Assembly (NCBI GenBank): GCA_017410265.1
Contig: JAFQRC010000004.1
Location: 1 to 64,000, forward strand
Length of the DNA: 64,000 nucleotides
Reading direction: 5' to 3'
From: Ruminococcus sp.
Lineage (GTDB): Bacteria; Bacillota; Clostridia; Oscillospirales; Acutalibacteraceae
Part shown: piece by piece, positions 465-34,474 of the stretch
Position numbering within the stretch: the stretch's first letter is position 1
How the letters are laid out: every line of letters starts with the position of its first letter
Notes under the pieces: generated by a model
What the model saw: the letters and a program-made list of their open reading frames with translations, nothing else
What the model was told of the DNA's origin: nothing
Databases searched by the model: none
Program-made: the position numbers and the translations under genes

Positions 465-3400
465 ATGAAAACATCTAGAATTTTAAGAACACTGCTATCT
501 TTGGTGCTGGCACTGTGCATGATGTTAACATACATCGTGATACCTGCAAATGCTGAAGAAGCGGATACATTCAATTATGTATCCCTGGGTGCTTCGAATA
601 CCAACGGTTATGGTATGCGTGGCTACATCACCGAGGAGGAGCTTGCACTGCTTCTTAGCGGTCAGGTTGACAAGAATGATGTTAACGTTTACGGATATGA
701 AAGAACCCCTGAGGGCGCATATCCTGACCTCATCAGAGATCACTACTCTGAGATTTACGACAATGTAACAGTTCATCAGCTGGGTATCAGCTCAATGCGT
801 GTTGAAGAACTCCGTATCCTTCTGGACGATACCTACATGGGTGATGACTACTCCTCATGGAGATTCACAGGCAGTGACGGTTGGTTCAGATCTGCTGAAC
901 CTGGCGGTATTGATGCACTCCGCGTTGCATACAAAGAGAATATTACAAACGCAGATTTAGTTACAGTTGACATCGGTTGGAACAACTTCGGTGTTTATGT
1001 GTGCAACCAGCTGGTTGACTACTTAAGCAACGGCAAATTCAAGTGGACCACCGACATCAACACTATTTTTGATACAGATGAAGAAAAAGCTGCTGCTGCA
1101 CAGGCTAAGGCTATCATCGGCTCTTACATCGTAAATTATGTTGGCGAGGGCGAAATGGCTACTGCACTTACTGATATCTTTGCTTACAGTATCTTAGGCT
1201 ATATCCACAACTTTGATATCGTTATGGAGAAGATTTACGAGCTCAACCCTGACGCTACAGTTGTTGTTCTGGGTATCCAGAACCTGCTCCACGGTGTAAA
1301 TGTTGATATCGGCGAAAACACATTGCCTCTGGGCGATATCTTCGGCAACTTTGTCAATATGGCAAACTACTATGCTTCCGCATGTTCTCCATATCAGACA
1401 AAATATAAGTATGTTAAGGCAGGCATCAATGAGCATGTTACAATCTTCATGGACTATATGAAGGACTACGACGGCGATGCTGAGAACCTCGACCAGAATG
1501 TCAAGGATTGCTTCGACTACTATGATGACAACCTGTTTATCCAGACAAGAGTTGACTATATGGCAGCTGAAATGGTTAAGAGTAATTTCGGCACATACCT
1601 GCCACAGCTTGGTTATGATGACCCACAGGCCTTTGTTGCAGACGGCAAACAGGGCAAGCTTGGTTCAATGCAGGAGATCTTTGACCTCATGTACTGGCCA
1701 GCACTCAACGCTGCATACGACACACTGGCAGTCCTGGTTAAAGAAATTGCAAATTATGAATCTGTAGATGGTAACGGACTTTTGAGCGGCGGTCTCGATA
1801 TCGGTGCTATTGAAGAAAACCTTATGAAAGCACTGGAAGCAGAAGTTCAGGAGAACGCTCTTTTAGCAACTCAGGGTCAGCCATACACTGTTGATCTTGA
1901 AAAGATTCTTCCTGATAGTAACACAAAGGTTGTTGCTGCTATGTACATCCGCTACTACATGGGCAACAGCTTCTTTGCACATCCTAACGCTACAGGCCAT
2001 GAGGAGGTCAAGGATGCTGTTATCGGCGTTATTGACAACCCTGAAACAGAAAAGGATCAGGCTCTGTCTGACTATCTGATCGAAAGCGTAAAGCAGATCC
2101 ACAAGCTGCTCTGCGCTGCTTCAGGTCACAGATACGACATTGTAGTTACTGCTCCTACCTGTGAAGAACAGGGCTATACAACATATACATGTACATCATG
2201 TGGCGATACAAAAGTTGACGACTATGTAGACGCACTCGGTCATACTGAGGCTGTTGACGCAGCAGTTGAGCCTGATTGTGAAAACACAGGTTTGACAGAG
2301 GGCAAGCATTGCTCAGTTTGCGACAAGGTGCTCGTTGCTCAGGAAGTTATAGACGCACTCGGTCATACTGAGGTTGTTGACGCTGCGGTTGAGCCTGATT
2401 GTACAAACACAGGTCTTACAGAGGGTAAACACTGCTCAGTTTGTGACAAGGTACTGGTTGCTCAGGAAGTTGTAGACGCAAAGGGTCATACACCTGGCGA
2501 TGACGCTGACTGTACAACAGCTCAGGTTTGTACAGTATGTGACGCAGAGCTCAAGCCTATGCTTGGCCACGATTACAAAGCAGTAGTTACACCTGTTACA
2601 TGTACAGAAAACGGCTATACAACATACACATGTACCCGTTGCGGTGATTCTTATATTGACGATGTTGTACCACATGTTGGTCACAAGACTGTTGTAGATG
2701 AAGCGGTAGACCCTGATTGTGAAAACACAGGTCTTACACAGGGTATGCACTGTAGTGAGTGTGGCGAAGTGCTCGTTGCTCAAGAAGTTGTTGCTGCTTT
2801 AGGTCATAAGCACGTAGGCGTTGTAACAGACCCTACTTGTGAAGATAAGGGATATACAACCTACACATGTACAGTATGTGATGACACATATGTTGACGAC
2901 TATGTAGATGCACTCGGTCATACTGAGGTTGTTGACGTAGCTGTTGCACCTGATTGTGAAAACACAGGTCTTACAGAAGGTAAACACTGTTCAGTTTGTG
3001 AGAAGGTACTGGTTGCTCAGGAAGTTGTAGACGCACTCGGTCATACTGAGGTTATTGACGCAGCTGTTGCCGCTGATTGTGAAAACACAGGTCTTACAGA
3101 AGGTAAGCACTGCTCAGTTTGTGACAAGGTACTGGTTGCTCAGGTAGTTGTAGACGCACTTGGTCATACTGAGGTTATTGACGCAGCTGTTGCACCTGAT
3201 TGTGAAAACACAGGTCTTACTGAGGGTAAACACTGCTCAGTTTGTGATAAGGTACTGGTTGCTCAGGTAGTTGTAGACGCACTTGGTCATACTGAGGTTA
3301 TTGACGCAGCTGTTGCACCTGATTGTGAAAACACAGGTCTTACTGAGGGCAAACACTGCTCGGTTTGTGATAAGGTACTGGTTGCTCAGGAAGTTGTAGA

Positions 3401-3851
3401 CGCACTTGGTCATACTGAGGTTATTGACGCAGCTGTTGCACCTGATTGTGAAAACACAGGTCTTACTGAGGGCAAACACTGCTCAGTTTGCGATAAGGTA
3501 CTGGTTGCTCAGGAAGTTGTAGACGCACTTGGTCATACTGAGGTTGTTGACAAGGGCTACGAGGCAACATACGAAAAAGAAGGCTTGACAGACGGTTCTC
3601 ACTGTTCAGTTTGTGACAAGGTTCTTGTACCACAGGAGATTATCCCAATGCTTATCAAGATAGGCGATGTTGACGGCGACGGCAACATTAGCGTATTGGA
3701 TGCAACTCTCGTTCAGCGTCATGTAGCTCAGATCAGTGCTATCAGCAATGAAAGATTTGTTGTTGCAGATGTTGATAAAGATAACAATATCAGTGTTCTG
3801 GATGCTACAATTATCCAGAGATTCGTTGCACAGATTATTTCCAAGTTCTGA
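465..3851 (+). CDS. Secreted SGNH-like protein with 13 Cys/His repeats and a C-terminal dockerin
   Basis: 1128 residues. A signal peptide ends near residue 30 (ANA). Residues about 36-540 look like an SGNH/GDSL hydrolase: GASNTNGYG resembles block I, DIGWNNF block III, and HPNATGH the C-terminal His block. The Asp normally three residues before that His is not visible, so esterase activity is uncertain. From residue 554 to about 1063 come 13 units of 27-41 residues, each starting GH and carrying a CxxC pair. Nine are of the type with [11 protein letters not shown], three of the type with GYTTYTC, and one is short. They may bind zinc or form disulphides. Residues about 1065-1128 are a type I dockerin with two calcium loops ([18 protein letters not shown]). 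It probably docks onto an extracellular cohesin scaffold encoded elsewhere. A bidirectional terminator follows. The substrate is unknown. Confidence 0.85.
2916..3530 (+). repeat. Five near-identical 123-bp tandem repeats inside the dockerin gene
   Basis: The unit starts GGTCATACTGAGGTT and recurs at 2916, 3039, 3162, 3285 and 3408, exactly 123 bp (41 codons) apart. The copies differ at only a few positions. More divergent units lie upstream from 2124 and one downstream at 3531. The period keeps frame, so gain or loss of copies would change protein length only. Confidence 0.95.
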
Positions 3852-27532: not shown

Positions 27533-27578
27533 ATAGTTGTCTACAAATTGTATACACAAAAAACAAAGGAGTAGTATT

Positions 27579-29084
27579 ATGAAAAAAGTATTGTGCCTTT
27601 TATTAAGTTTTTTGATGATAGTATCACTTGCGGCTACTATCAGTGCGAGCATTACTGTTAACAGATACAACTACAATGCTACATACGACGAGGCTGTACT
27701 CGACGGCATTTTACCTGAGGGTTACACACAGCACGGCAGATGCGGTGAAGATGTCTACTGGGGTTACTACGAGGACTCAAAAACTCTCATCATTGGCGGT
27801 GAGGGTAAACACGAAAGCAGAGATTCGTATAATCTAAAATACGAATATGAAGAACTTCCTTTTGAGAAAGTTGTTGTGCAGGAAGGCATAACAGAGCTTG
27901 ATGCCTTTGCCTTTAATAACTGCAAGAATATGAAGGAGGTTTCACTTCCTGACAGCCTTATAAAAATTGACAGCAGTGCCTTTGTTAATTGTAAAAGCTT
28001 AGTTAGTATTACAATTCCGAAGAATGTAAGCTTTCTAGGTTTAAACTTATTCTACTATTGTGAAGCTCTTGAGGAGATAAAGGTTGACCCTGAGAACACC
28101 ACCTTTGACAGCAGAGATAACTGTAATGCTATTATTGCTACTGAAATCAATCAATTGAGATGCGCTTGCAAAAACACAACGATTCCTCAGAGCGTTACTA
28201 GTATCGGTCCCTTAGCATACAGAGGAATAACAGGGGTAACAGAAATCATAATACCAGAGCATATCACAAGTGTTTTTGGTCAGGCTTTCGAAGAGTGTGT
28301 TGATCTTAAGACTGTGAGATTGCATCCTGAGGTTGAGATGTATCCGTCAGGTATATTCAGCAAATGCACAAAGCTTGAAAATGTATATATTCCTGAGGGG
28401 ATAACTGCAATTGGTATGCAGGATTTCAGTGGATGTACAAGTCTTGAAAGCATTGTGATTCCTTCAAGTGTCGAGTGGATTTCTCAATCTGCTTTTCTTG
28501 ATTGTACAAACCTAAAAACAGTTACCATAAAAAATGGTGTACAAAATATTGGTCCCGGTGCATTTAGTGGATGCACAAGCCTCGAAGAAATTGTAATCCC
28601 TGAGTCAGTTGCTAATATTCAGATAGCTGCTTTTAAGAATTGTACAGCTCTGAAAAGCATAACTATTCATAATCCTGAGTGTGTTATAGGTGATATGGAT
28701 ATTACTATCCCTGAAAACGCTGTTGTTTACGGCTATAGTAATTCCACAGCTGAGGCTTATGCTAAGAAATACGGCAGAGAATTTGTAGCATCATTGGGTG
28801 ACTATAAACCTGCATCACCTGACCAACCAGCCACCCCGGATCAACCAGCTACTCCAGACCAGCCGACAGTGCCATCGACTCCTGATGAGTGGATTCTTGG
28901 TGACGCTGATGAAGACGGCGAGGTTTCCGTAATGGATGCGTCACTGATTCAGATGTACTTAGTTGGTAAGAAGAACATTGTAGGTGATGCTCTTCTTGCG
29001 GCTGATGCTGATAAGGACAGCGAGGTTTCCGTTATGGACGCTTCTCTGATACAGATGTACTTAGTCGGTAAGAAAGAACTCTGA
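27579..29084 (+). CDS. Secreted BspA-type leucine-rich repeat protein with dockerin
   Basis: 501 residues from the ATG at 27579 with AAGGAG upstream. Signal peptide to about residue 24. Residues about 65-395 carry BspA-type (LRR_5) repeats of about 23 residues, such as AFSGCTSLEEIVIPESV. A PDQPATPDQPATP linker leads to a C-terminal dockerin (about 437-501) with two nearly identical halves, EVSVMDASLIQMYLVGKK. That recognition helix differs from the DATLIQRH type in the other dockerins here, so it may bind another cohesin. LRR proteins of this type usually mediate adhesion or protein binding; no catalytic motif is visible. Confidence 0.88.
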   Translation: MKKVLCLLLSFLMIVSLAATISASITVNRYNYNATYDEAVLDGILPEGYTQHGRCGEDVYWGYYEDSKTLIIGGEGKHESRDSYNLKYEYEELPFEKVVVQEGITELDAFAFNNCKNMKEVSLPDSLIKIDSSAFVNCKSLVSITIPKNVSFLGLNLFYYCEALEEIKVDPENTTFDSRDNCNAIIATEINQLRCACKNTTIPQSVTSIGPLAYRGITGVTEIIIPEHITSVFGQAFEECVDLKTVRLHPEVEMYPSGIFSKCTKLENVYIPEGITAIGMQDFSGCTSLESIVIPSSVEWISQSAFLDCTNLKTVTIKNGVQNIGPGAFSGCTSLEEIVIPESVANIQIAAFKNCTALKSITIHNPECVIGDMDITIPENAVVYGYSNSTAEAYAKKYGREFVASLGDYKPASPDQPATPDQPATPDQPTVPSTPDEWILGDADEDGEVSVMDASLIQMYLVGKKNIVGDALLAADADKDSEVSVMDASLIQMYLVGKKEL

Positions 29085-30709: not shown

Positions 30710-30955
30710 GTGCAGGTTCTGGGTTACAAGAAGAAAACTAAAACACAGCTGCTCAGAGCAGTCGACGAGTGCGTGTCCATCAGCCAGCTTTTTGCGCTTG
30801 TCCAGCACGAGGGGCTTGTACTGCAGATGCAGTCTTTACCCGGTGCGTCTAACATTTCTCCTAAAAAGCTACCTACTGGAGATGTGGTTATGAAGTCACC
30901 GCTTGAAAACCTCAAAGACAGAGTGAAAACGGCGATCGTGTGTCAGAGAATATAG
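30710..30955 (+). CDS. Small unrecognised protein
   Basis: 81 residues from a GTG preceded by AAAGGGG. Charged N-terminus (GYKKKTKTQLLRAVDECVS), then a helical section and a C-terminal LENLKDRVKTAIV. No signal or membrane segment. A good promoter upstream and terminator downstream support a real single-gene unit. Family not recognised; a helical DNA- or protein-binding role is only a guess. Confidence 0.65.
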   Translation: MQVLGYKKKTKTQLLRAVDECVSISQLFALVQHEGLVLQMQSLPGASNISPKKLPTGDVVMKSPLENLKDRVKTAIVCQRI

Positions 30956-30963
30956 TTTTAGTT

Positions 30964-30993
30964 AAAGTACAGGCAACTGTACTTTTATTTTTT
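30964..30993 (+). terminator. Terminator after the 81-residue gene
   Basis: AAAGTACAG and CTGTACTTT with a 4-base loop, followed by TATTTTTT. Confidence 0.92.
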
Positions 30994-31025: not shown

Positions 31026-31053
31026 TTGAAAAATCACTCTTTAGTGTTATAAT
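31026..31053 (+). promoter_or_regulatory. Promoter of the metallophosphoesterase dockerin gene
   Basis: TTGAAA and TATAAT with a 16-base spacer and extended -10 (TGTTATAAT). Confidence 0.8.
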
Positions 31054-31090: not shown

Positions 31091-34000
31091 ATGAAAAAGT
31101 TATTATCTATCATTTTAGCTTTAGTGATGCTTTTTAGTGTTATGCCGTACACGGTATTTGCTGAAGAAGTAAGCACACTGAGCTATGAATTTACAGGCAC
31201 TAACGCTGATGACCCGGGTTATGCAGAAGGTACGATTACTTTCAGTGCAGCTTCCACAGCGAAATACTACCTGTACTGGGGCGATGAAGAAAAGGCGCTC
31301 GAGCAGTATTTTGAAATCGCTTCGTTTACTGTAGAAAAAGGTAGCTTTGCTACATACAAATTCCCTGCTCAGACAGCTATTCCTGCTGATGCAGAATGTG
31401 TATTTGTATCAAAAGCGAGCTCATGCGAAAATGCATATGTAAGCGAAAACATCGCAAAGTTTGATATTCCTGACAGCAAGAAGCTCTTTGATTCTTCTTC
31501 TGAGCGTCAGTACAGATACGCTGCACTTTCTGATATCCACATTGATATGCAAAACGGCAATGAAGCAGGCTACTATGTAAACGCTGTTGACCACTGGGCA
31601 CAGACTCTGGATGTCTGCGTTGACAGAGAGGTTGACTTTATCATTTCAGCAGGAGACCAGGTAACAAACGCTTGGGGCGCTACTCAGGAATGGCTGACAT
31701 ATCAGAAGGTTTTAGCTGAGTCTGACTATGTTAACCCGATTTACGAATCAGACGGTAACCACGAGCCTAGAGGTAGCGCAAACAGTAACTGCGACACAGC
31801 TTGCTCAAACGAAGAGTTTTCAATCGGCACAGGTCTTGATGCTGATGCTCAGTCTATAGTTGACGGCAAGGATTACTACGAAGTAACAGAGCCTAATACA
31901 GGCGACCACTTCATCTTTATGAGTGAAGTTAACGCTCACCCTGGTGAGAATGATAACTTCTCGAAAGAACAGCTCGATTGGCTCGAGGGCTTGCTCGATA
32001 AATACGAGGGCGACGGAAAGAAAGTATTCCTTATTCAGCACGCTCTGCTTCAGGGCTACGGCGCAGGTGACGATACTTTTGACCCGGGTTATCAGGGCGG
32101 TATCAGAATGGCTCATGCTGAAACAGGAGAGCAGTTCCCTAACAACCAGAGATTCAAAGCTATTATAGAAGACCATCAGGAAATTATCTGGTACTCAGGT
32201 CATACACATATTGATTTCACAGAAAACCAGAACTATTCTTCAGAAAACGGCAAATCCTGCCATATGGTGCACATCCCGTCAGCGTGCAATACTACACGCT
32301 ATCAGAAGGACGAAAACGGAGTGAAATACTTAGGCACCAGCACAGACTACACCTTCTTTGATGACACAACACAGGGTTATGTTGTTGATGTTTTCGAGGG
32401 TGCAACAGTGCTTTATGGTACAAACCTTCACTACAACAAGGTTTACCCTGCGTATACATACATAATCGAAGAGGGCGTTCCTGAAGAAAGACCAACAGAA
32501 GAAACTCAGCCTCGCCCAACAGTTCCAGTTCCAACACAGCCTGATATCGAAAACGGCACGGTTGTTTACTGTGTCAATTCAGCTAACTGGGCTGATGTTT
32601 ATGTTCACGCTTGGCCGACCGGTTCTACAGGTACAACATGGCCTGGCTATCCGATGACTAAAACAGGAGAAACCGTAAACGGTTTTGATGTATACAAAGC
32701 AACAATCGAAGCTGACTACACAGGTGTTATTTTTAACAACATGGGCAACGGCTCAAAGACTCCTGACCTCACAGTTATGGAAAACCAGTACTATGATGTA
32801 AGATCAGGTGCGTGGTACGCAACACTAGCAGAGGTTCCTGAGGTTGAAGCGCTTTCCACTGACCGCTATCTTGTTGGTGAATTCAACGGCTGGAGCACAG
32901 TAGCTAATGAGTTCAAGCTCAACGCTGAGGGTGACTCCACAGCTTATGTCACAATGACTTTAGACGCTAACAAGACATATCAGTTCAAGGTTGTCAGAGA
33001 GGGCACATGGACCAGCTGTTCAACACCTATTACAGAAAGCGTAGAAGGTCTTACTTTCTCTAAATCAGTCAGCGGTAACGCTACAATTACTACTCAGGCA
33101 GCAGGCGACTATGTATTCTCGTTTGGTATTGCTAGCTCACAGCTTGGCGTAGTTTATCCCGAGCCGTCAGAAACTCCGACAGAGGCTCCGACAGATAAGC
33201 CAACTGAAACTCCGACTGAAGTTCCTACAGACAAGCCAACAGAAACTCCGACTGAAGTTCCTACAGACAAGCCTACAGAAACTCCAACTGAAGTTCCGAC
33301 AGATAAACCGATTGTTGATATCATCTACGGTGATGTCAATGGTGACGGTGAGGTGGCCGTAATAGACGCTACTTTGATTCAGCGCCATATCGCAAAGATT
33401 ATTACACTCACAGAGGAACAGCTTGAGAGAGCTCTCGTCAGAGGAGATGCAGAGCTGACAGTAATGGACGCAACTCTGATTCAGCAGAAAGTTGCTAAAA
33501 TTATAGAAAAATTCCCTGTTGAAGTTGAAAGCAAAGATGTTGCTACAACATCAGCTGATGATGCAGTAGCAAGTGATGATATCTTTACAAAAGCTACTGA
33601 GTATCTCTCATATTACTTCCAGTATGCTTCGTATGACGACTACCAGGCATTAAAGAAGGTTGTCTATAAGTACAAGGATACTGACACAACATCTCTTACA
33701 GCTTCTGCACAGGCAGAGCTTGAAGAGGCTATTGCTGATTTTGATGCTCTACGTGAAAAGGTACATCAGCAGACAGTATACTTCACTGACGGCAACAGCC
33801 TTGGTAACATTAGAGCATACTACTTCAACAGTGCTTCAAATACTGAGGTTGAAGCTTGGCCGGGACAGATTGGTTCTTACATCCAGACTAATTCCTACGG
33901 CCAGAATGTTTACGCTGTTACACTGAACTTCTCAAAGTTTGATACTATCGTATTCAGCAGCAACGGCAATAATAAGACAGCTGACATCACCTTAGATGGT

Positions 34001-34429
34001 TGCTCAGGCAAGCTCTACTACCCGACAGAGCAGGATGCTGAGGGAGCATGGGGCGTAGCCGAAACCACCTTCAAGCAGATGTGGTGCGGCGAAAAACAGG
34101 ACGAAGTCGGCGACGATGTAGCCGAAGATGTCACCATTTACTTCACAGATACACTAGGCTGGTCAACTGTTAACTGCTACTACTGGTTAGGCTCTAAGAA
34201 CAACTCCTGGCCTGGTCAGCAGATGACCTATGTCAGAAATAATTCGTCAGGACAGCCGATTTACACAATTACTCTTCCTGCAGGCGCATCAGTTGTATTC
34301 AACAATTTTGTCAACGATGCAGGTCTACAGAGCGTTGATGTCACAGGTGTCACAGGCGGTTGCGGATATTATCTGACAACTCAAAGTGCAGGTAAATATC
34401 TGTATGAAACCTATGTTTACGGCGAGTAA
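31091..34429 (+). CDS. Secreted metallophosphoesterase with starch-binding modules and an internal dockerin
   Basis: 1112 residues. Signal peptide (1-24); a beta-sandwich of purple-acid-phosphatase style (about 25-125); a calcineurin-like phosphoesterase (about 140-440) with LSDIHID, AGDQVTN, SDGNHE and HTHID metal motifs. Then a CBM26-like module (about 487-580, DVYVHAWP...WPGYPM), a second carbohydrate-binding-like domain (about 593-690, YLVGEFNGW), a Pro/Thr linker of repeated TETPTEVPTDKP, an internal dockerin (about 746-808), a helical segment (about 820-893) and two more CBM26-like modules (about 894-1112, each with WPGQ). The second dockerin loop (RGDAELTV) lacks the usual calcium-binding Asp series. 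It may release phosphate from starch-bound substrates, an inference. Confidence 0.88.
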   Translation: MKKLLSIILALVMLFSVMPYTVFAEEVSTLSYEFTGTNADDPGYAEGTITFSAASTAKYYLYWGDEEKALEQYFEIASFTVEKGSFATYKFPAQTAIPADAECVFVSKASSCENAYVSENIAKFDIPDSKKLFDSSSERQYRYAALSDIHIDMQNGNEAGYYVNAVDHWAQTLDVCVDREVDFIISAGDQVTNAWGATQEWLTYQKVLAESDYVNPIYESDGNHEPRGSANSNCDTACSNEEFSIGTGLDADAQSIVDGKDYYEVTEPNTGDHFIFMSEVNAHPGENDNFSKEQLDWLEGLLDKYEGDGKKVFLIQHALLQGYGAGDDTFDPGYQGGIRMAHAETGEQFPNNQRFKAIIEDHQEIIWYSGHTHIDFTENQNYSSENGKSCHMVHIPSACNTTRYQKDENGVKYLGTSTDYTFFDDTTQGYVVDVFEGATVLYGTNLHYNKVYPAYTYIIEEGVPEERPTEETQPRPTVPVPTQPDIENGTVVYCVNSANWADVYVHAWPTGSTGTTWPGYPMTKTGETVNGFDVYKATIEADYTGVIFNNMGNGSKTPDLTVMENQYYDVRSGAWYATLAEVPEVEALSTDRYLVGEFNGWSTVANEFKLNAEGDSTAYVTMTLDANKTYQFKVVREGTWTSCSTPITESVEGLTFSKSVSGNATITTQAAGDYVFSFGIASSQLGVVYPEPSETPTEAPTDKPTETPTEVPTDKPTETPTEVPTDKPTETPTEVPTDKPIVDIIYGDVNGDGEVAVIDATLIQRHIAKIITLTEEQLERALVRGDAELTVMDATLIQQKVAKIIEKFPVEVESKDVATTSADDAVASDDIFTKATEYLSYYFQYASYDDYQALKKVVYKYKDTDTTSLTASAQAELEEAIADFDALREKVHQQTVYFTDGNSLGNIRAYYFNSASNTEVEAWPGQIGSYIQTNSYGQNVYAVTLNFSKFDTIVFSSNGNNKTADITLDGCSGKLYYPTEQDAEGAWGVAETTFKQMWCGEKQDEVGDDVAEDVTIYFTDTLGWSTVNCYYWLGSKNNSWPGQQMTYVRNNSSGQPIYTITLPAGASVVFNNFVNDAGLQSVDVTGVTGGCGYYLTTQSAGKYLYETYVYGE

Positions 34430-34448
34430 ATCTGTATAAAAACAATTG

Positions 34449-34474
34449 AAGGCTCCCTTTCGGGAGCCTTTTTT
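34449..34474 (+). terminator. Terminator of the metallophosphoesterase gene
   Basis: AAGGCTCCC and GGGAGCCTT around TTTC, followed by TTTT. Confidence 0.93.

Follow-up and report, generated by a model that had tools for sequence, protein, structure and literature searches.

A secreted, starch-targeted metallophosphoesterase (MPE) that docks into an amylosome of the Ruminococcus bromii type is the function we favour, with somewhat better than even confidence, for the protein encoded at 31091–34429 on the forward strand of the window, i.e., the whole stretch of 64,000 nucleotides that was analysed. The open reading frame starts with ATG and encodes a single predicted secreted protein of 1112 amino acids. 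The sequence-only reading had described a metallophosphoesterase, three CBM26 modules and a dockerin in one protein, and this is borne out by Pfam, by motifs and by the fold match of an AlphaFold2 model. The work is based throughout on computation with assembled genomes, most of them MAGs.

In its N-terminal half, the protein consists of a signal peptide, a beta-sandwich, the MPE domain, a CBM26 and a further module; the C-terminal half comprises a PT-rich linker, a dockerin, a helical module and two more copies of CBM26. All of these lie on the forward strand. The signal peptide, MKKLLSIILALVMLFSVMPYTVFAEE (31091–31165), is read from the sequence, and the relatives begin alike. The beta-sandwich (residues 27–135; 31169–31495) is modelled by AlphaFold2 as strands with a pLDDT mostly above 90. 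The PT-rich linker (33173–33310) contains a PF04886 stretch at residues 708–741, and in the AlphaFold2 model of the C-terminal half both the linker and the dockerin are of low confidence. The helical module (SYDDYQALKK..., residues 813–893; 33527–33769) carries no Pfam name. Our own HMM detected it in 77 of the best 80 relatives, and the three without it are truncated; it is kept from Ruminococcus to the relatives in Lachnospiraceae. The beta-sandwich, the helical module and the module at residues 587–694 had been absent from the sequence-only reading. Matches to a streptogramin lyase and an immunoglobulin-blocking protein (NCBIfam, PDB) were weak, far below the cut-off, and were rejected.

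The gene is probably transcribed as a single-gene unit, because a promoter-like site precedes it and terminator-like hairpins are found on both sides. The former, TTGAAA-16-TATAAT with a TG before the second hexamer (31026–31053, +), scored 11/12 in a consensus scan, a score that is no proof of function. The hairpins, also from the consensus scan, lie at 30964–30985, 5' of the gene, and at 34448–34471 (+), 3' of it. An 81-aa ORF with a GTG start (30710–30955, +) also separates the genes for the GH25 and the MPE; the first of these hairpins follows it, and six orthologous loci share its conserved DNA. The neighbouring genes for a GH25 lysozyme, a polysaccharide deacetylase and cysS were considered as a clue to the substrate and set aside, as they are conserved around the gene and look like plain synteny.

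The MPE domain (residues ~138–462; 31502–32476) is recognised by its motifs and by its fold. The Pfam profile PF00149 gave no match in the protein itself; it matched 46 of the 51 aligned sequences at E values of up to 1 and was above the cut-off in several. The motif set of the calcineurin-like superfamily, DxH, GD, GNH(D/E), H and GHxH, is found complete as D148-x-H150, GD189, GNH222–224, H317 and GH371-x-H373. These motifs are invariant or nearly so in both alignments (A1 and A2), with the exception of H150 in one branch. A conserved loop specific to the family, GxGxGD, surrounds D327. The AlphaFold2 model of the domain has a pLDDT of 92.5 and a pTM of 0.92, and its best structural matches are all metallophosphoesterases. 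The closest solved fold is the glycerophosphodiesterase GpdQ (Z 24.9, rmsd 2.5 over 246 residues), and Rv0805, the fish dimetal phosphatase 2nxf and animal purple acid phosphatases all come within about 1 Z of it. The domain is thus taken as a binuclear metallophosphoesterase that is probably active, and such modelled fold similarity does not distinguish a monoesterase from a diesterase. In a paralogue branch (e.g., L114:3042-5795, L094, L095 and L096), the first metal motif reads DPQ instead of DIH, a change that may alter the use of metal.

The targeting of the protein to starch is well supported, as four of its modules have starch-binding relatives. Pfam finds CBM26 in three stretches (E 1.6e-29), and the PF16738 scores of all three copies exceed the cut-off of 28.1 bits. 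Copy 1 (residues 490–577; 32558–32821) scores 48.3 bits, with its best Pfam stretch at 492–561. Copy 2 (residues 894–981; 33770–34033) scores 35.7 bits and matches the CBM26 of R. bromii Amy10 (E 1e-8), while copy 3 (residues 1014–1098; 34130–34384) scores 46.9 bits and matches R. bromii Amy16 (E 3e-10) and Amy10 (E 3e-8). The copies resemble modules of Amy10, Amy16, E. rectale Amy13K and Sas6. The fourth, starch-binding-like module (residues 587–694; 32849–33172) is of an X25/CBM48/SusF/CBM69-like kind, as judged from its model and weak sequence matches. The model is closest to the N-domain of a maltohexaose amylase (9us3, Z 10.9), followed by SusF (Z 8.0) and the starch-binding domain of AmyP (Z 7.8). 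By sequence, it gives a weak Pfam match to X25 (E 0.025), and its homologue in L198 matches CBM_48 (E 0.0015).

The dockerin (residues 745–804; 33323–33502) is internal, of type I by Pfam and loop comparison. Dockerin_1 (PF00404) matches residues 746–801 with two loop-helix repeats (E 1.3e-8; 35.4 bits against a cut-off of 22.9). Its first loop, DVNGDGEVAVID (33332–33367), is canonical, with the calcium ligands complete. The second loop, LVRGDAELTVMD (residues 782–793; 33434–33469), has L and R at positions 1 and 3, where the ligands are lost; positions 5 and 12 remain D, so that two of the four ligands tested are kept. The earlier statement that this loop lacks the Asp ladder therefore holds for two of these four positions. 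A type I dockerin is recognised by calcium ligands in both loops, and here they are complete in loop 1 only; the module is best called dockerin-like with one intact loop, and its cohesin binding putative. Among the 55 dockerins parsed in its genome, no other has lost two ligands of loop 2, the parser having skipped dockerins whose helix did not fit its pattern. Within the MPE family, the loss recurs: in nine of the 37 dockerins parsed, at most two of the four ligands of loop 2 remain, L116 being counted among them through a one-residue deletion that shifts the parse. On the tree, these nine fall in the branch of the present protein or in that of the paralogue, except for L097, which has no position there. 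In the orthologue L138, loop 2 is intact. The decay may reflect relaxed constraint or may be a trait of a one-loop sub-type or sub-family, and it could weaken cohesin binding.

That the dockerin is internal rather than terminal, as the sequence-only reading had noticed, is confirmed by the 307 residues that follow its match. In the same genome, more than 100 residues likewise follow about one in four of the parsed dockerins. For amylosomes, CBM26 after an internal dockerin is nothing unusual, because the same arrangement is present in R. bromii Amy10, Amy12 and Amy16 (PMC5814915; PDB 9qf8, 9qfa, 9qf9).

In every feature that can be read from sequence, the genome itself, that of a gut bacterium specialised in starch, encodes an amylosome. 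It holds 77 dockerin, 39 CBM26 and three cohesin matches. At C2:245-251 kb, genes for cohesin and CBM26 proteins lie in a cluster, and the C-terminal ends of these proteins resemble membrane anchors. The cohesins are located at C2:246-251 kb and C1:1.3 kb. A comparison of the match lists shows about 15 dockerin frames that carry CBM26, and six GH13 frames also bear both dockerin and CBM26 (on C13 and at C2:67.7 kb, C10:63 kb, C5:50.6 kb, C4:48.4 kb and C9:257.9 kb). The protein combines a dockerin with a starch-binding module, and its genome encodes cohesins as well as GH13 enzymes with dockerins; this is how a component of an amylosome is recognised. It is most likely such a component, because amylases of the GH13-dockerin-CBM26 kind and cohesins are encoded alongside it. 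Two further dockerin proteins are encoded in the window. One (465–3851, +; 1128 aa) has about eight cysteine-rich repeats that match zinc-finger and laminin-EGF profiles. The other (27537–29084, +) is a BspA-type leucine-rich-repeat protein with a terminal dockerin, and it resembles R. bromii Doc1 (SP LRR LRR Doc, PMC9112005).

The MPE family is widespread in the genus, being matched in 61 of 100 sampled genomes with the own genome included, and in 57 of the 99 others when three weak matches are left out. A collection of 84,980 genomes yielded 204 relatives. Most of the best 80 belong to Oscillospiraceae of herbivore guts or to Lachnospiraceae, and the nearest ones are from goat, deer, sheep and cattle samples. 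A dockerin is present in 40 of the best 80, each of which also has CBM26, and a further 17 have CBM26 without a dockerin. Six carry CBM41; PF03714 was tested on five of them and matched with E values between 1e-18 and 1e-20. The rest are three with another C-terminal module only, eleven with the MPE and helix only, and three truncated ones. The profiles for dockerin, CBM26, helix and CBM41 were self-built; those for dockerin, CBM26 and CBM41 agreed with Pfam in the members that were tested. That one MPE family is joined to the unrelated CBM26 and CBM41 is the best evidence for work on or near an alpha-glucan. The tree requires at least nine changes between architecture states, which suggests that modules were reshuffled while glucan binding was retained. 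The eleven relatives that lack a recognised CBM are mostly from Lachnospiraceae, and they indicate that the family does not need starch binding.

The chromosomal position of the gene is shared by orthologues with as little as 51% identity, which argues that the gene has been kept vertically. The own genome also has an MPE paralogue with dockerin and CBM26 on C16, and on C10 a third, distant MPE whose dockerin is N-terminal. The Lachnospiraceae MPE loci examined share no common neighbour except a cupin/AraC-like regulator, which lies directly downstream of the MPE gene in three loci (L150, L151 and L173). In L182, a record titled Candidatus Gastranaerophilales, the MPE-dockerin-CBM26 gene is nearly identical to that of the Clostridia locus L189, and its placement is probably a binning error of a public MAG.

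In the favoured reading, the CBM26 modules would hold the enzyme on starch granules and the dockerin would place it beside amylases. The MPE would then hydrolyse phosphate esters borne by the granule, by which phosphate would be freed and groups that hinder amylases removed. The earlier suggestion of action at starch thus holds for the targeting, through the four modules, the CBM26 and CBM41 found across the family and the amylosome of the same genome. Its proposal of phosphate released from or near starch is reasonable as a supposition about the substrate. Our guess for the preferred class is starch-bound phosphorus, with the glucosyl phosphomonoester first and amylose-bound lysophospholipid second; starch phosphomonoesters are a plausible substrate. 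Tuber starch carries phosphomonoesters, whereas in most cereal starches the phosphorus is present as lysophospholipid (PMC10178128). The diets of goat, deer, sheep and cattle may offer either form.

This cereal phosphorus opens the way to another reading, namely a starch-bound phosphodiesterase that attacks amylose-complexed lysophospholipid, perhaps together with esterases of the amylosome, and so loosens amylase-resistant amylose-lipid complexes. Such a role is unlikely, though it survives best among the alternatives. GpdQ is the top fold and acid sphingomyelinase-like enzymes come next, but the top rows are tied within 1 Z and likeness of this kind cannot separate the two activities. A gene for an esterase is also found two genes from the C16 paralogue, in an arrangement kept in five relatives. 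It encodes 495 aa with a signal peptide, dockerin, CBM26 and a CE1-like esterase domain (L114:7562-9049, -; ~18.6–20.0 kb on C16; PF00756 E 3.5e-17). However, this esterase adjoins the paralogue and not the present gene, its PDB relatives are CE1 feruloyl-type esterases, and the neighbourhood may be mere synteny. The esterase, which is of the amylosome type, does show that the genus joins starch modules and dockerins to enzymes beyond its amylases; an accessory role for the MPE thereby gains in credibility but is not demonstrated.

Slightly less probable again is phosphate scavenging on plant particles, in which the starch modules anchor the surface complex to the grain and the enzyme acts as a general phosphatase on nearby phytate, nucleotides or sugar phosphates. 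Counting against the favoured reading as well, CBM26 is present in all 100 sampled genomes of the genus, so that on a secreted protein it may mark membership of the surface complex and not the substrate. The presence of the MPE correlates strongly with the raw CBM26 count across these genomes (p 9e-6), and the relation is not significant when the three modules that each MPE itself contributes are taken off the count (p 0.10). Many secreted proteins of the own genome bear dockerins, including the CBM26-bearing frames counted above, and the structural matches include plant purple acid phosphatases and phytases. Against this, the purple acid signature DxG...GDxxY with its metal-binding tyrosine is missing, the protein having DIH and GDQVT. 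Moreover, the relatives exchange one glucan-binding module for another, and none for recognised modules of other targets. Very improbable is an accessory role in starch adherence, in which the MPE fold would be retained chiefly for binding or as a scaffold; the four starch-binding-like modules do recall the R. bromii Sas proteins (through the Sas6 match) and one branch has DPQ for DIH, but the metal motifs are all intact here and close to invariant in the 51 sequences.

The starch-targeted, amylosome-docked phosphoesterase that we favour may belong to a wider scheme. It is possible, with the balance tilting against it, that amylosomes carry a dedicated de-decorating set, in which phosphoesterases and esterases on a CBM26-dockerin chassis strip starch granules of their phosphorus, be it glucosyl phosphate or amylose-bound lysophospholipid. 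If so, the protein would be a bacterial, MPE-type counterpart of the plant glucan phosphatases and would supply a missing step in how starch is broken down in the guts of herbivores. The plant enzymes SEX4 and LSF2 are cysteine-based dual-specificity phosphatases; the reaction would be the same if starch phosphomonoester is the substrate, while the fold is unrelated. GpdQ, Rv0805, 2nxf and the purple acid phosphatases share the fold and the metal motifs at 12–18% identity, whereas the present protein is secreted, modular and starch-targeted and has the GxGxGD loop.

Amylosomes have been described in terms of amylases, pullulanases and binding proteins. In the open-licence PMC literature, no description was found of an amylosome with a phosphoesterase or of a metallophosphoesterase with dockerin and starch; amylosome with phosphatase returned unrelated papers only, and for starch dephosphorylation in R. 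bromii there were none. Like Amy10, Amy12 and Amy16, the protein is secreted and has an internal dockerin followed by CBM26, and Amy16 and Amy10 are the best PDB matches of its dockerin and two of its CBM26 copies. It differs from them in having an MPE instead of GH13, a decayed second calcium loop and an extra helical module. The R. bromii proteins Sas6 and Sas20 (PMC9112005) are likewise non-amylase amylosome proteins with CBM26-like starch-binding modules, and the Sas6 structure matches the CBM26 copies at Z 10.4. Unlike the present protein, they have no reported phosphoesterase domain, and the string 'phosph' is absent from the Sas20 paper (PMC9112005). The new point is, thus, an MPE on the chassis of the amylosome, a combination kept in many related gut bacteria that suggests an undescribed step of starch digestion. 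A phosphoesterase kept so widely on this chassis would add a chemical step, the removal of phosphorus from granules, to the known systems and could help to explain which starches resist digestion.
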